Assembly: GCF_964019625.1 (NCBI RefSeq)
Contig: NZ_OZ026458.1
Span: 744,001-808,000 of the forward strand
Origin: Spiroplasma endosymbiont of Diplazon laetatorius
Lineage (GTDB): Bacteria; Bacillota_I; Bacilli_A; Mycoplasmatales; Mycoplasmataceae
Length of the DNA: 64,000 bases
Direction: 5' to 3'
The notes under the pieces were generated by a model. The model was not told the origin of the DNA and searched no databases. It saw only the letters and a list, made by a program, of their open reading frames with translations. This document shows positions 22,983 to 28,417 of this stretch, piece by piece (positions within the stretch are counted from its first letter, which is position 1; each line of letters starts with the position of its first letter). A program made the position numbers and the translations under genes.

Positions 22983-23705
22983 TTAAATGGCATCTAGTAT
23001 CATTTTATTGTTTTCAGATATATCTAAAAGTCTTTTAAAACACTTATCAAAATTATTAGTTCTATTATAGTGCTCAATAGGTAAACCTTTACAACTTTCC
23101 AGCAATCCAACAGACAGTTTGCAAAAATCTAATAATTCACCTTTATAAGTTGGTAATATTGGCCCAAAACCTCTATATAAAAGCATTGAGTTAGCTATTA
23201 TGCTTAAAAAAGGTATTGTATATACACCTAATGGTTTTTCAATTGCGAAATAAATATATGTAATTAGTAAGTCCTCAATAAAGGCTTCAAGACTAGCTTC
23301 TTCGATTAAACTTTCTTCAAAAAAAATTATCATCTCTATTGTTTTGTTTTTACCAGTGGCCATATTTAAAAATACATGTTCATATTCTCCAGAAGAATCT
23401 AGCAACATATATACTTCTCTATAATTATTTACATCAAAAGATCACTTGTGTTCTCCTTCGTTTCTAAAAGTTTCTTTAGATTCTATTATTTTTAATCTTA
23501 TTAACTCTCAAATCCTTAGAAAGTTAATCAACTCTTTCCCATAAACCTCTATCGAATCATCAAGGAGGTATTGATCATCTGCTATTAATTCAAAAACTTC
23601 ATCTTCAGAAAATTCAAAATCTTTATAATAAGACATACTTGATACTAGTTTTGCTCCAATAGTGGATCACAATTCCTTATTTCTGTACAAAAAAATTACT
23701 TCCAT
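22983..23705 (-). CDS. Hypothetical protein, last gene of the metK cluster
   Basis: A 240-residue protein with no clear signal peptide and a moderately hydrophobic central part (about 145-185, around IEKPLGVYTIPFLSIIANSMLLY). It begins ATG GAA GTA at 23705, 23 bases after the trmFO stop, without a strong ribosome site, so it depends on the upstream genes or has another start. The N-terminal half is acidic. Two TGA(Trp) codons are read through. No family is recognised. Confidence 0.75.
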
Positions 23706-23728
23706 ATAAGGTAATTTTATATTTTAAA

Positions 23729-25018
23729 CTAGATAAAGCTTTTTAATAATTCTAAAGAATTTTTACATATATATGTGTTTTTTTCTTCTTTAGAATCAAA
23801 TTTTAAACTGTTATCGAACTTCACAATACCCATATTAGACTTCATAGGCTTTAATTTTTTATGTTTTGGATTAGTTATATAACTAATCAAACTTCCTAGT
23901 ACAGTGTCCTCTGGAAGTGGTATAAATTTCTTATTATTTATAACACTTAATATCCCTCTAGCAGCGACCAAACCAGAAGCAAAAGATTCAATATAACCTT
24001 CTACACCAGTTATTTGACCTGCAAAAAATATGTTTTTCTTTCTCATCATTTGAAGTTTTTTGTTAAGTATCTTAGGGGAATTTATAAAGTTATTTTTATG
24101 CATAACACCAAATCTTCTGAAAACAACTTTTTCTAAACCAGGAAGAGTTGAAAATATTCTTTTTTGTTCTTTTCAAGTTAAATTTGTTTGAAAACCCACA
24201 ATATTATATAGGTTATCAATTGCATCATCTCTTCTAAGTTGAACTGCAGAATATGGTTGAATACCATCTTCATTTTCAAGACCATTTGGAGACATAGCCG
24301 ATCTTAAGAGTATTTTTTTAGATGTTTTTGCCAATTGTTCAATTGGTTGGCAACCCTTAAAGAATATTTCTTGTTCAAAATCTTTCAATTTAACTTGTTC
24401 TGCATTTACAAGTTCATTGTGAAAATCGTTAAATTGTTTTTCGTCTAAAGGAATGCAAATATAACTATTGTCATTTTTATGTCTAGATTTGTAGTAAACC
24501 TTTGTAAAATCTATTGATTGCTTTTCTAAAATCGGAGCAGATGCATCTAAATAGAATAACTTTTGTTTACCCAGTAACTGCTCTAATTTAATTTTAAATT
24601 CGTCAGAACAAAGAGGACCTGTTGCAATTAAAACTATTTCTTCTGTATCTATGTCTAAAAATTCTTCTTCAAATACTTTAATATTTTCATGTTCTCTTAT
24701 TCTTTTATCAACCATATTAGAAAACAATTCTCTATCAACTGCCAAAGCATCATCAGATGGTATTTGTGTTTTATAAGCACAATCTAAAATAAAGGAACCT
24801 AGTATTTCAAGTTCCTTTTTTAATATCCCTACTGCATTTTGTGTTGAAACACTTCTAAAAGTATTTGAACAAACTAATTCAGCAAAGGTTTCTAGTGTTT
24901 GTATTTCATTTTTATGAATTTTCTTTTTTTCATATAAATGTACTTCTACACCATTTTCTGCAAGTTGTCATGCAGCTTCACACCCCGCTAAACCAGCTCC
25001 GATTATTGTAACTTTCAT
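23729..25018 (-). CDS. trmFO: Folate/FAD-dependent tRNA uridine-54 C5-methyltransferase TrmFO (or 23S rRNA homologue)
   Basis: A 429-residue GidA-related flavoprotein. The FAD-binding GxGxxG is [12 protein letters not shown] at the N-terminus, and [17 protein letters not shown] near the C-terminus is a TrmFO hallmark. It methylates U54 in the T-loop of tRNA using methylenetetrahydrofolate; in some Mollicutes a paralogue (RlmFO) acts on 23S rRNA instead, and sequence alone does not decide. It follows cutC by two bases, with GGAGAA inside the end of cutC. Confidence 0.9.
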
Positions 25019-25020
25019 AA

Positions 25021-25680
25021 TTATTTCTCCAATAATTCATTTATCTTTTCAGCACTTGATAGTTCATCTCAACTTGAGTTATTTCTAACACATGATCCAA
25101 CGTGAATATTGTCAGATATTTGTTTTAATTCTAAGAAGTTATCTTGATTAACTCCTCCTCCGATTAAAACCTTTGTGTCAAGATTCATTGAAACTAATTC
25201 TTTTAAAGTTTCCATACCATCTTTAATGTTTTTACCACCACTTGTAAGAACATTATTTATTTTTAATTCATTTAAAATAGCATAAGATTTTTTAAAATCT
25301 TTAACTTCATCAAAAGCCTTGTGAAATGTTACTTCTAAATCACCTTTAATTTCAATGACTTGTTTTAAAAAATCAGTGTCTATTGTTAAATCTTTATTTA
25401 AAGCACCAATTACTATACCGTTGGCTTTAGTATTTTTAATAGCTTTTATTTGTTCAATCATTTCTTTCTTTTCTTCATCACTGTAGAAAAAGTCTCTTTC
25501 TGTATTTCTAACTATTACATTTACTGGCAATACAGAATAAGAACAACATTCAATAACATCTTCTAAAAAAGGTGTTAGTCCACCTATTTTTAATTCTCTA
25601 CAAAACTCAATTCTATTTGCATTTGAGTTATTGATTATTTTTATATCCTTTAAATCTTTAGCAATCACTTCTAATAACAT
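25021..25680 (-). CDS. cutC: CutC-family TIM-barrel protein
   Basis: A 219-residue protein of the CutC family. Features are the N-terminal ANRIEFCRELKIGGLTP, VNVIVRNTERDF, TFHKAFDE and VLTSGGKN, ending with LIGGGV. CutC was named for copper tolerance in E. coli, but that role is disputed and its enzymatic activity is unknown. It starts directly after the metK stop (TAA G ATG), so it belongs to the SAM-riboswitch operon. Confidence 0.9.
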
Positions 25681-25681
25681 C

Positions 25682-26815
25682 TTATAAATATGCCTCTAAT
25701 TCTCTAATTTTATCTAGTTTTTCTCAGTTGAATTCTTTTTTACCAAAATGTCCGTATTTACTTGTTCTGAAGTAAACTGGAGATTTTAAATCTAAATTTT
25801 CAATTAAAGAGCTAACTTTAAAGTCAAAGTTTTCTCTTAAAGCTTTATATAAAATATCCATTGATACTTTGTTTGTTCCAAAAGCTTCTATAAATACAGA
25901 AACAGGTTCTGATTTACCAATTGCATAACTAACTTGAATTTCTAGTTTATCTGCTAGTTTTGCTGCAACCATATTTTTTGCAGCATATCTACACATATAA
26001 GCAGCACTTCTATCCACTTTACTTGGATCTTTTCCTGAGAAAGCCCCTCCACCGTGACGTGAGTATCCACCATAAGTATCTACTATTATTTTTCTTCCTG
26101 TAAGACCAGTATCTCCTTTTGGTCCTCCAATAACGAATCTACCAGTAGGATTTATTAAAACATTGAAATCAGTGTTTAAATTATATCTTTTTGCAATTAC
26201 ATCCATAATGTTTGATTTAACAAATTTTTCAAATTCTTCTTTGTTGTAATCAGCATCATGTTGAATTGACATTAAAATAGTTTCAATTCTTGGGTTATTT
26301 TCATTTGTGTAATCCATTGTAACTTGTGATTTCATATCTGGTTGAGCTCACTTGAAAGCTCCAACTTTTCTTAACTTTGAAGCTATGTGAACTAAGTCAT
26401 GAGCAACTTGGATTGAATAAGGCATATAAGTAGATGTTTCATTATTTGCATAACCAAACATAATTCCTTGGTCTCCAGCTCCCATTTCTTCTTGTTCAAC
26501 ACCCATAGCAATATCAGGTGATTGTGTATTTATTTTAACTACAATCTCACATGTTTTTGGATCTATACCAGTTTCTTGGTTATCGTAACCAACTCTTTCT
26601 AAAACTCATTTTGCAATTGCTGCATAATCAACTTTAGCTTTAGTTGTTATTTCCCCTCCAATTAATAAGTAGTTTTCTGTAACAAAAGTTTCACATGCCA
26701 CTTTTGAATTTGGATCTTGTCTTAAACATTCATCAAGTATTGCGTCACTTATTTGATCACAAATCTTATCTGGATGTCCTTCTGAAACTGATTCACTTGT
26801 AAATAATCTTCTCAT
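25682..26815 (-). CDS. metK: S-adenosylmethionine synthetase
   Basis: A 377-residue enzyme making S-adenosylmethionine from methionine and ATP. Motifs: [19 protein letters not shown] at the N-terminus, [11 protein letters not shown] (read across the TGA-containing middle), and the P-loop-like [18 protein letters not shown]. The ATG at 26815 is preceded by AGAGGAG. It heads metK-cutC-trmFO-hypothetical and is led by a SAM-I-type riboswitch and terminator. Confidence 0.97.
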
Positions 26816-26851
26816 TGTTTTTTTCTCCTCTTGTAAATAAAATCGTAAAAT

Positions 26852-26885
26852 AAAAAAACTTCCCCAACAAAAGAGAAGTTTTTAA
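26852..26885 (-). terminator. Regulated terminator (riboswitch expression platform) before metK
   Basis: On the minus strand AAAAACTTC and GAAGTTTTT pair across a 12-base loop and are followed by a T run, between the aptamer and the metK ribosome site. The 3' strand of aptamer stem P1 (GATGAG) could pair with part of the terminator stem (CTTCTC), a plausible antiterminator. Confidence 0.7.
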
Positions 26886-26889
26886 TAGC

Positions 26890-26981
26890 CTCATCGTTGG
26901 TTTCCCCTTAATTTAAGCACCTTCATAAAATGGGTTGCTACCACATCAACGAGTTGTTTTCTCTCAGTGGTTCTTAATAAG
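26890..26981 (-). ncRNA. SAM-I (S-box) family riboswitch, divergent
   Basis: The minus strand reads CTTATTAAGAA, then a stem ACCAC/GTGGT with a TGA/GA kink-turn, then AGCAACC, a short stem, GGTGCTTAAATT, a small hairpin, and GATGAGG. This order matches SAM-I aptamers: P1 (CTTATT pairs with GATGAG), P2 with k-turn, the conserved GCAACC, P3, then GGTGCTAAWTT. The usual GGTGGAGGGA of P2 is replaced, with the k-turn strands seemingly swapped. Position before metK fits feedback by SAM. The class is by eye; a covariance search would confirm it. Confidence 0.75.
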
Positions 26982-27018
26982 AATTATTTAGTTTTTCTAA
27001 AGTAATAATAACAAATAT

Positions 27019-27984
27019 TTATATATTTTTAATTATTAATTCAAATATTTGTTCTGAATTTTTTGTATTTAAGAAATAATGCTTAAATCCTTTAACTGTT
27101 TCTAAATTATATTTATCTTTCTCTAATTTTGAAATGTATTTTACTGTATTTTTAGAGTTACAGTAAAAGTCTGTGTTTGACATTATTAGTGTAAATTTGC
27201 TTTTTGAATTATTTATATTCTTAACACTAACTTTGTTTGCTTTTTTTCATAAATAATAATCTCTTGTATTCATTGAGTTCTTAGTTGTATTTTCATCTTC
27301 TATTACTTTTGCAAAATTAGAATCATCTGTTAAATCTGAACCATTTAAAGGTAAAGCTAACCTAGCATTTGCTTTAAATAATGTTCCTCATCAAAGTTTT
27401 AAATAAAAGCCAAAAGTCTTTTTGTATACATTATTAAGTCTCATTGAAGAACATATTATGCTGTGAATTTTTTCATCTTGTGATAAAAATGAAGCTATAG
27501 TCGATCCAAATCCATCTCCCAATAAGATTATTTTTAAACTAGGGTATTTTTCACCTATCTCTTCTACTATTTCTCTTAAATCAGATATCGTAGTTCCAAA
27601 GTGGTATTGGTTATCAACTATATTTTCACCACAATTTCTTTGATCAAAAGAAACTAAAGAATATTTATCTTTATGAGTTTTTCTCAACCATAATTCTAAC
27701 TTATCAAAATCTTTTCTATTTCTAAACATATCATGAATACCAATTATTATATATTCACTTTTTTGATCAATTTCACCAAATCATCTAAGCTCATATCCAT
27801 CACTTGTTTTGAACATTTTCTTCTTAATAAGTTCACTTTTAACTATTTGGTCTTTTTTAAATTTAAGCTTATTAAACTTAACTATTCTAGCTATTAAAGC
27901 TAGAATGAAAATTAAAGCAAAAGTACCTAAAACAGCATAAACAATAACACTTAATAAATCTCAAACTGCATTTCATATTCCCAT
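27019..27984 (-). CDS. Membrane-anchored alpha/beta-hydrolase-like protein lacking the serine nucleophile
   Basis: A 321-residue protein with one N-terminal membrane helix (about 8-35) and a cytoplasmic alpha/beta-hydrolase domain. SFDQRNCGEN fits the DxRGxG turn after strand 4, and the nucleophile elbow appears as LLGDGFGSTIAS, where GxSxG is expected. Gly takes the place of Ser (about residue 158). A late His (KGFKHYF) could be the triad His. So either the enzyme is inactive or a neighbouring residue acts. Start ATG 27984 follows GAAAGGTG. It is a single gene upstream of, and on the same strand as, the metK riboswitch. Confidence 0.78.
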
Positions 27985-28051: not shown

Positions 28052-28417
28052 TTAGTCTCCGTGTGATAAATCTAATGCGTAAACATCAAATTGTCCCATA
28101 AATCAGAATGCGAAGATAACGTTTTGTTTTCTAATAATGAACTCATCGTTACCCATAACGTTAATTGCTTCATATATAACGTTACCAGCATCTTGCTCAA
28201 GGTTAATTCTCATACGTTCGAAGTCATAAATTGTTGATCTACCATACATTTCGTTTTTACGTTCGAATTCAACTTCAGTTAAAATTCTTTCATATGTATC
28301 TCTGTATTTTGCAGCTGTTTTAAGTCTTTGTTCTAAACCTCTACAAACGTTTTTAACTTCTTTATCTAAAGCGAATAATGCTTCGTGTAAATTTCTAAGC
28401 TTATCATGTCTTTTCAT
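28052..28417 (-). CDS. Small conserved-looking hypothetical protein
   Basis: A 121-residue, mostly helical, charged protein with a strong TAGGAGATG site before the ATG. Codon choice (CGT/CGC-like arginine, GTT, TTC) looks like that of a well-expressed gene compared with neighbours. The N-terminal 70 residues are rich in Arg, Lys and Glu with heptad-like spacing; the C-terminus is more hydrophobic. Its -10 is probably TATAAT near 28462. No family is recognised. Confidence 0.8.

Follow-up and report, generated by a model that had tools for sequence, protein, structure and literature searches.

The metK leader of this genome raises the question of whether a divergent SAM riboswitch lies upstream of metK-cutC-trmFO, as a sequence-only reading had claimed, by which mechanism such an element would act, and where its divergence resides. 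We addressed this question computationally in the window, i.e., the whole stretch of DNA analysed (64,000 nucleotides), and in related genomes.

Identification of a SAM-I aptamer in the metK leader

An Rfam covariance search of the whole 64 kb window on both strands returned a match to RF00162 (SAM-I) on the minus strand at 26983-26888, which covered the full model (E = 2e-7) and, at 46.3 bits, exceeded the gathering score of 44.4 by only 1.9 bits. Since it was one of three gathering-level Rfam matches in the 64 kb window and the sole RF00162 match in the 979,438-base genome, where it is the metK-leader copy, the match goes beyond chance. The search with the SAM-I model that the sequence-only reading had proposed as a check thus gave a score above threshold, in support of its SAM riboswitch upstream of metK-cutC-trmFO. 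The clade model R1 scored the window copy, a member of that model's own alignment, at 94.6 bits. The single-sequence fold of the window aptamer was no more stable than shuffles (z -0.86), and single-strand minimum free energy was dropped as support for the aptamer. The metK start was located 72 nt downstream of the aptamer end, with a 12-bp terminator in between.

26888-26983, minus strand: SAM-I-type aptamer with P1-P4 four-way junction (RF00162, 46.3 bits; R1, 94.6 bits)
26976-26983, minus strand: P1 5' strand UUCUUAUU (alignment of 18 sequences, pair counts)
26940-26971, minus strand: P2 with canonical kink-turn (sequence, Rfam alignment)
26917-26938, minus strand: P3 with the SAM-pocket motifs GCAACC and GGUGC (Rfam alignment; little or no variation among 18 sequences)
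26907-26916, minus strand: J3/4 UUAAAUUAAG, without the CC that pairs with the GG of L2 in standard SAM-I
26899-26906, minus strand: reduced P4, GG-GAAA-CC (both pairs unchanged in 18/18 sequences)
26888-26895, minus strand: P1 3' strand GAUGAGGC, the switching strand (alignment; alternative-fold partner of the terminator 5' arm and loop)

The window aptamer has the P1-P4 four-way junction of SAM-I, with a P4 of just 2 bp. Hand mapping showed that 22 of the 23 highly conserved SAM-I positions listed in the available part of PMC3764141 were retained, or 23/23 when a one-base insertion in J3/4 is allowed, and that the ligand-contact bases in P1, J1/2 and P3, at the positions given in that same part, were all kept. 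In the Rfam alignment, P1, the kink-turn P2, GCAACC and GGUGC were all present in SAM-I order, as had been described from the letters.

P2 reads, from 5' to 3', ACCAC-U-GA-GAG-AAAACAA-CUC-GUU-GA-U-GUGGU, and comprises the helix ACCAC/GUGGU, the C helix GAG/CUC, two facing GA steps, of which the 3'-strand one is preceded by a 3-nt bulge (GUU), and an A-rich L2 loop, AAAACAA (26960-26954). The tandem G.A and the 3'-strand bulge form a canonical kink-turn, whose columns 19, 20, 37 and 38 were invariant in 18 sequences. A swapped kink-turn, as the sequence-only reading had it, was rejected: the bulge and GA sit on the 3' strand in the canonical SAM-I orientation, and P2 follows the standard order of Rfam, with which it aligned without rearrangement. 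The same reading had reported GGTGGAGGGA as missing, which holds for the literal string; the homologous CUGAGAGA is present, however, and retains, besides the kink-turn GA, the C-helix G and the A that follows it. P4 (GG-GAAA-CC) did not vary within the genus; a third base pair is possible in L139. P4 stretches resembling GGGGGAAACCC also occur elsewhere in the class (L177, L189, from other families), which suggests that the short P4 is old in the lineage.

At the level of sequence, the aptamer family, the canonical kink-turn, the intact SAM-contact positions and the metK context are established. By the Rfam threshold and by its anatomy, the element is very probably a SAM-I riboswitch that works like other SAM-I transcription switches.

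Genes downstream and upstream of the aptamer

25682-26815, minus strand: metK, methionine adenosyltransferase (TIGR01034, 544 bits; cut-off 309)
25021-25680, minus strand: cutC family gene, 1 nt after metK (PF03932, 144 bits; cut-off 23)
23729-25018, minus strand: trmFO, folate-dependent tRNA m5U54 methyltransferase, 2 nt after cutC (TIGR00137, 472 bits; cut-off 429)

The cutC family gene scored below the NCBIfam equivalog cut-off. Among 20 genus genomes, the order metK-cutC-trmFO was found in 13 and metK-trmFO in 3, and in the remaining 4 only cutC was found in the flank searched. A terminator scan of the region found no strong terminator at the metK, cutC and trmFO junctions, and together with the gaps of 1-2 nt this makes cotranscription likely. 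Judged from this gene spacing, cutC and trmFO probably share SAM control with metK. TrmFO uses folate rather than SAM, so that its inclusion may reflect cotranscription alone.

Upstream, a serine aminopeptidase S33-like (alpha/beta hydrolase) gene (27019-27984, minus strand) stops about 35 nt short of the aptamer and immediately before a putative -10 element. It is preceded by a gene for a 121-aa protein (28052-28417, minus strand) with no Pfam or NCBIfam match, which was present in one copy in 20/20 genus genomes and one further genome (21/60 in the family). The identities of this protein fell into two groups (88-99% and 71-79%) that did not track MetK identity, and its gene was possibly replaced or exchanged between species.

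Terminator, predicted alternative pairing and likely promoter

26852-26883, minus strand: intrinsic terminator, 12-bp hairpin (stem 26883-26854) and 7-U run (folding, terminator scan)
26889-26900, minus strand: antiterminator 5' strand CCAACGAUGAGG, i.e., P4 3' strand, J4/1 and P1 3' strand (predicted fold, in which the terminator 3' arm is incomplete)
26864-26876, minus strand: antiterminator 3' strand UCUC...UUGUUGG, overlapping the terminator 5' arm, loop and first 3'-arm bases (predicted fold)
27005-27013, minus strand: likely promoter with an extended -10 element, TG-n-TATTAT, situated about 20 nt before the aptamer (consensus match, weak alone)

The terminator that had been read directly after the aptamer was recovered as a 12-bp stem followed by a 7-U run to 26852. 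Within 23000-27200, 5 terminator-like sites were detected against 0.9 in shuffles, and the one in the leader had the longest stem. A hairpin before a T run was present in 21/21 leaders (17 from the genus, 4 others), with energies of -5.8 to -14.0 kcal/mol.

In the predicted alternative fold, CCAACGA.GAGG (26900-26889) pairs with UCUC (26876-26873) and UUGUUGG (26870-26864), a pairing that would disrupt P1, P4 and the terminator together. Folded with an incomplete terminator 3' arm, 15/17 genus leaders were predicted to pair the P1 3' strand downstream; in L127, where the upstream strand is CCAGCAAUGAGAG, the pairing was retained with an altered downstream sequence. L120 and L124 showed no such pairing when folded, and in L114, L115, L116 and L118 the best fold had the P1 competitor alongside the terminator. 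The antiterminator energies were modest (mean z about -2.4 over 17 leaders; P = 0.13 for the window copy). These predictions point to an attenuation platform, i.e., a terminator and, mutually exclusive with it, an antiterminator formed with the P1 3' strand, and agree with the transcription switch that the sequence-only reading had considered likely.

Promoter consensus matches in the region were not above chance (19 versus 22.8 expected); by eye, a similar -10-like sequence occurred at the same place upstream of most relatives' aptamers. The metK ribosome-binding site, GAGGAG (26830-26825), lies outside both the aptamer and the terminator.

In the proposed mechanism, RNA polymerase would start just upstream and transcribe the aptamer. 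With SAM bound, P1 would stay closed, neither its 3' strand nor the CC of P4 would be available, and the terminator (26883-26852) would form ahead of metK. When SAM is scarce, CCAACGAUGAGG would instead pair with UCUC...UUGUUGG within the terminator (5' arm and loop), and the polymerase would read through into metK and then, almost without a gap, into cutC and trmFO. Because the P1 3' strand is predicted to be able to pair with the terminator 5' arm and loop instead, SAM-off control of metK by premature transcription termination would be the best reading and, by anatomy, the best-supported mechanism; SAM binding and the direction of the switch are what we infer from it.

Conservation and distribution of the element

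Across the genus, the Spiroplasma Apis clade, RF00162 matched 17/20 genomes at E <= 1, and 15/20 exceeded the cut-off. The same limit gave matches in 33/60 genomes of the family, with that of G077 weak; a stricter limit of E <= 0.001 gave 55/320 genomes of the order and 177/395 genomes of the class. In all 31 loci read (17 from the genus, 14 from the family), metK began 52-118 nt downstream of the aptamer; these loci and the statements on metK cover the matches other than the weak G077 match (E 0.007) and the second of the G251 matches (E 0.5).

Alignment of 18 sequences showed 95.1% of cells paired and two-sided changes in 7 pairs, compared with a shuffled mean of 2.8, and 0/500 shuffles reached 7; as the sequences are related and the count took in two putative pseudoknot pairs, the shuffle figures are not probabilities. 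Compensatory changes in homologues, whose absence the sequence-only reading would have taken as refuting it, are present, including two-sided changes in 3/5 pairs of P2a. The outermost P1 pair was unpaired in 11/18 sequences.

The clade model added three aptamers, in G376, G407 and G419, with scores of 67-87 bits, all of them below the Rfam cut-off. Those of G376 and G419 precede metK, and that of G407 (L217 1536-3324) heads a gene for a 532-aa amino-acid permease (PF13520), a candidate methionine importer, with metK next. Methionine or SAM sensing fits this arrangement.

In three genus genomes, G397 (L154), G327 (L155) and G244 (L157), neither an aptamer nor a terminator was found between the promoter-like TTTGnTATTATTA and the metK ribosome-binding site. 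The clade model gave no more than chance-level matches in these genomes (E 0.26 in G327; E 2 in L154), and a hidden divergent aptamer in the genus genomes without an RF00162 match was rejected on this basis. Judging from the sequences, it is as if aptamer and terminator had been lost as one unit. In the same three genomes, trmFO was not found beside cutC in the flank searched. A separate observation concerns G502, a genome of about 0.8 Mb in the same order, where three RF00162 matches (one of them covered by L194) lie within about 10 kb (C1:368461-378791).

Reduction of the L2-J3/4 pseudoknot

In standard SAM-I, according to the available part of PMC3764141, the P2 loop pairs with J3/4 through GG:CC (G27G28:C65C66), a contact important for ligand binding. 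The covariance model scores nested pairs only and so omits this pseudoknot, which we judged by sequence. The GG:CC pseudoknot was not found in the window aptamer, an absence that the sequence-only reading had overlooked. CC in J3/4 occurred in 0/23 Apis-clade-type sequences (22 parsed by script; L139, the one locus that dropped out by its coordinates, by eye), compared with 52/57 named metK leaders with a recognised core pattern. The named control set comprised 80 of 589 metK-related loci, mainly from distant Firmicutes; lack of the core pattern removed 23 of these 80 and 18 of the 60 class loci from the count.

The Apis clade and its near relatives have an A-rich P2 loop and a J3/4 that is mostly U-n-AAAU. 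At most AA:UU is possible, with columns 29-74 pairing in 15/18 and columns 30-73 in 17/18 sequences, and no compensatory change was found in these pairs among the 18 sequences, as every departure breaks the pair. A loop A is invariant at alignment columns 24, 29 and 30, as is the AAA of J3/4. An A-rich loop with UUAAAUU was also present in one genome of another family (L179).

We applied a second criterion, namely at least 4 Watson-Crick pairs, of which 2 G-C. It was reached in 11/12 aptamers of g5 (the other Spiroplasma genus), 4/4 of family f31, 28/42 of the other class families and 42/57 named leaders, and in 3/22 of the Apis-type set versus 5.2 expected from shuffles. The three Apis-type matches (L116, L120 and L219) were rejected as pseudoknots, as were wider L2-region matches such as CTC:GGG, since they involve the C helix or a P2 strand and lie outside the loop. 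The chance rate of this criterion is high in GC-richer sets (22.1/57 named leaders), so that standard leaders are better judged by the CC count. The g5 and f31 aptamers have no CC in J3/4, yet carry a strong pseudoknot of different sequence.

The window aptamer diverges in its 2-bp P4 and in its reduced pseudoknot, the latter being a clade-wide variant and the real oddity of the element. We tentatively suggest, while considering it rather doubtful, that in Apis-clade spiroplasmas and close relatives the SAM-I aptamer may fold and bind SAM without a Watson-Crick L2-J3/4 pseudoknot, its A-rich loop docking instead on the J3/4 AAA or on the minor groove of P2b/P4, a replacement tertiary contact by which the switch would be adjusted to an AT-rich cell. 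The matches listed in our literature search included no paper on SAM-I without the pseudoknot.

Alternative explanations

A divergent aptamer leaves room for a variant that has switched its ligand from SAM to spermidine or to a different SAM-related compound. SAM-I variants that respond to spermidine are known, and one of those tested was taken from a metK leader (available part of PMC10853860), so gene context alone is no proof of SAM. For these variants, the figure legend of the same source assigns the altered specificity, the exact bases aside, to J1/2 and the internal loop of P3. At these sites the window aptamer retains the standard SAM-I bases: the G and A of J1/2 and the A, A, U and G of P3 (columns 11, 12, 48, 49, 65 and 66) were invariant in 18/18 sequences. 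The gene partners were metK and, once, an amino-acid permease, with no polyamine genes, and a change of ligand is accordingly highly improbable. A decaying relic, whose similarity persists while SAM binding has become too weak to regulate after loss of the pseudoknot and shrinkage of P4, would fit the absence of CC in J3/4 from all 23 clade sequences and the complete loss of the element from 3/20 genus genomes. Against such decay, the helices are maintained by compensatory changes, the pocket bases are invariant across species with MetK identity down to 71%, and the terminator and alternative pairing, features that a relic would lose, persist; we give this explanation minimal weight.

It is also very unlikely that the switch acts mainly on translation or RNA stability and that the hairpin is no working terminator. 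Some SAM-I switches that act on translation are known (available part of PMC2258182), and the terminator is a predicted one in this bacterium. Nevertheless, GAGGAG lies clear of the aptamer and the terminator, the hairpin and T run recur in 21/21 leaders, and the alternative pairing overlaps the terminator. Premature transcription termination by a SAM-I riboswitch remains our preferred reading.

Literature context and significance

Among the matches listed in our search of a partial literature collection, there was no description of a SAM riboswitch in Spiroplasma or Mollicutes. In PMC5138195, which deals with promoters in S. melliferum and two other Mollicutes, the main text contains neither 'riboswitch' nor 'metK', and the words Mycoplasma, Mollicute, Mesoplasma and Spiroplasma are absent from PMC2258182. 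The remark of the sequence-only reading that SAM riboswitches are not commonly noted in Mollicutes therefore holds for the literature searched but not for the genomes, in which they are not rare (17/20 in the genus, 33/60 in the family, 55/320 in the order). Copies above the cut-off should be picked up by automatic Rfam annotation, and in other respects the element is a routine family member that Rfam finds unaided.

Spiroplasma-type bacteria are genome-reduced and wall-less and have few transcription factors. If SAM is bound, such bacteria would keep RNA feedback on SAM synthesis, and this feedback may be coupled to a SAM-independent, folate-dependent tRNA methyltransferase, TrmFO. SAM binding would also reveal to what extent the best-studied SAM riboswitch tolerates reduction of its pseudoknot in nature. 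Apis-clade copies without the pseudoknot, the sister genus with a re-sequenced one and species without the whole element form a natural comparison set.

Comparison with known systems

The window element resembles the SAM-I (S-box) riboswitches of Bacillus metK leaders in its four-way junction, canonical P2 kink-turn, SAM-pocket bases, metK context and a predicted terminator/antiterminator platform built on the P1 3' strand. Unlike these, its pseudoknot lacks GG:CC and has AA:UU at most, its P4 is reduced to 2 bp, and a variable base stands where A61 of J3/4 is expected, unless a one-base insertion is allowed. The g5 metK aptamers (S. chrysopicola, S. syrphidicola and relatives) share the bacterial family, the gene and the riboswitch class with it, but keep a strong pseudoknot of another sequence, GCUAA:UUAGC (11/12 by the second criterion above); in addition, their P4 region is longer and their terminator lies further downstream. 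With the spermidine riboswitch, a SAM-I variant described in the available part of PMC10853860, the window element has in common the SAM-I fold, altered conserved positions and, in one example, a location before metK; according to that part, the changes of the spermidine riboswitch lie in the ligand pocket, whereas in the window element the pocket is unchanged and the change affects a distal tertiary contact.
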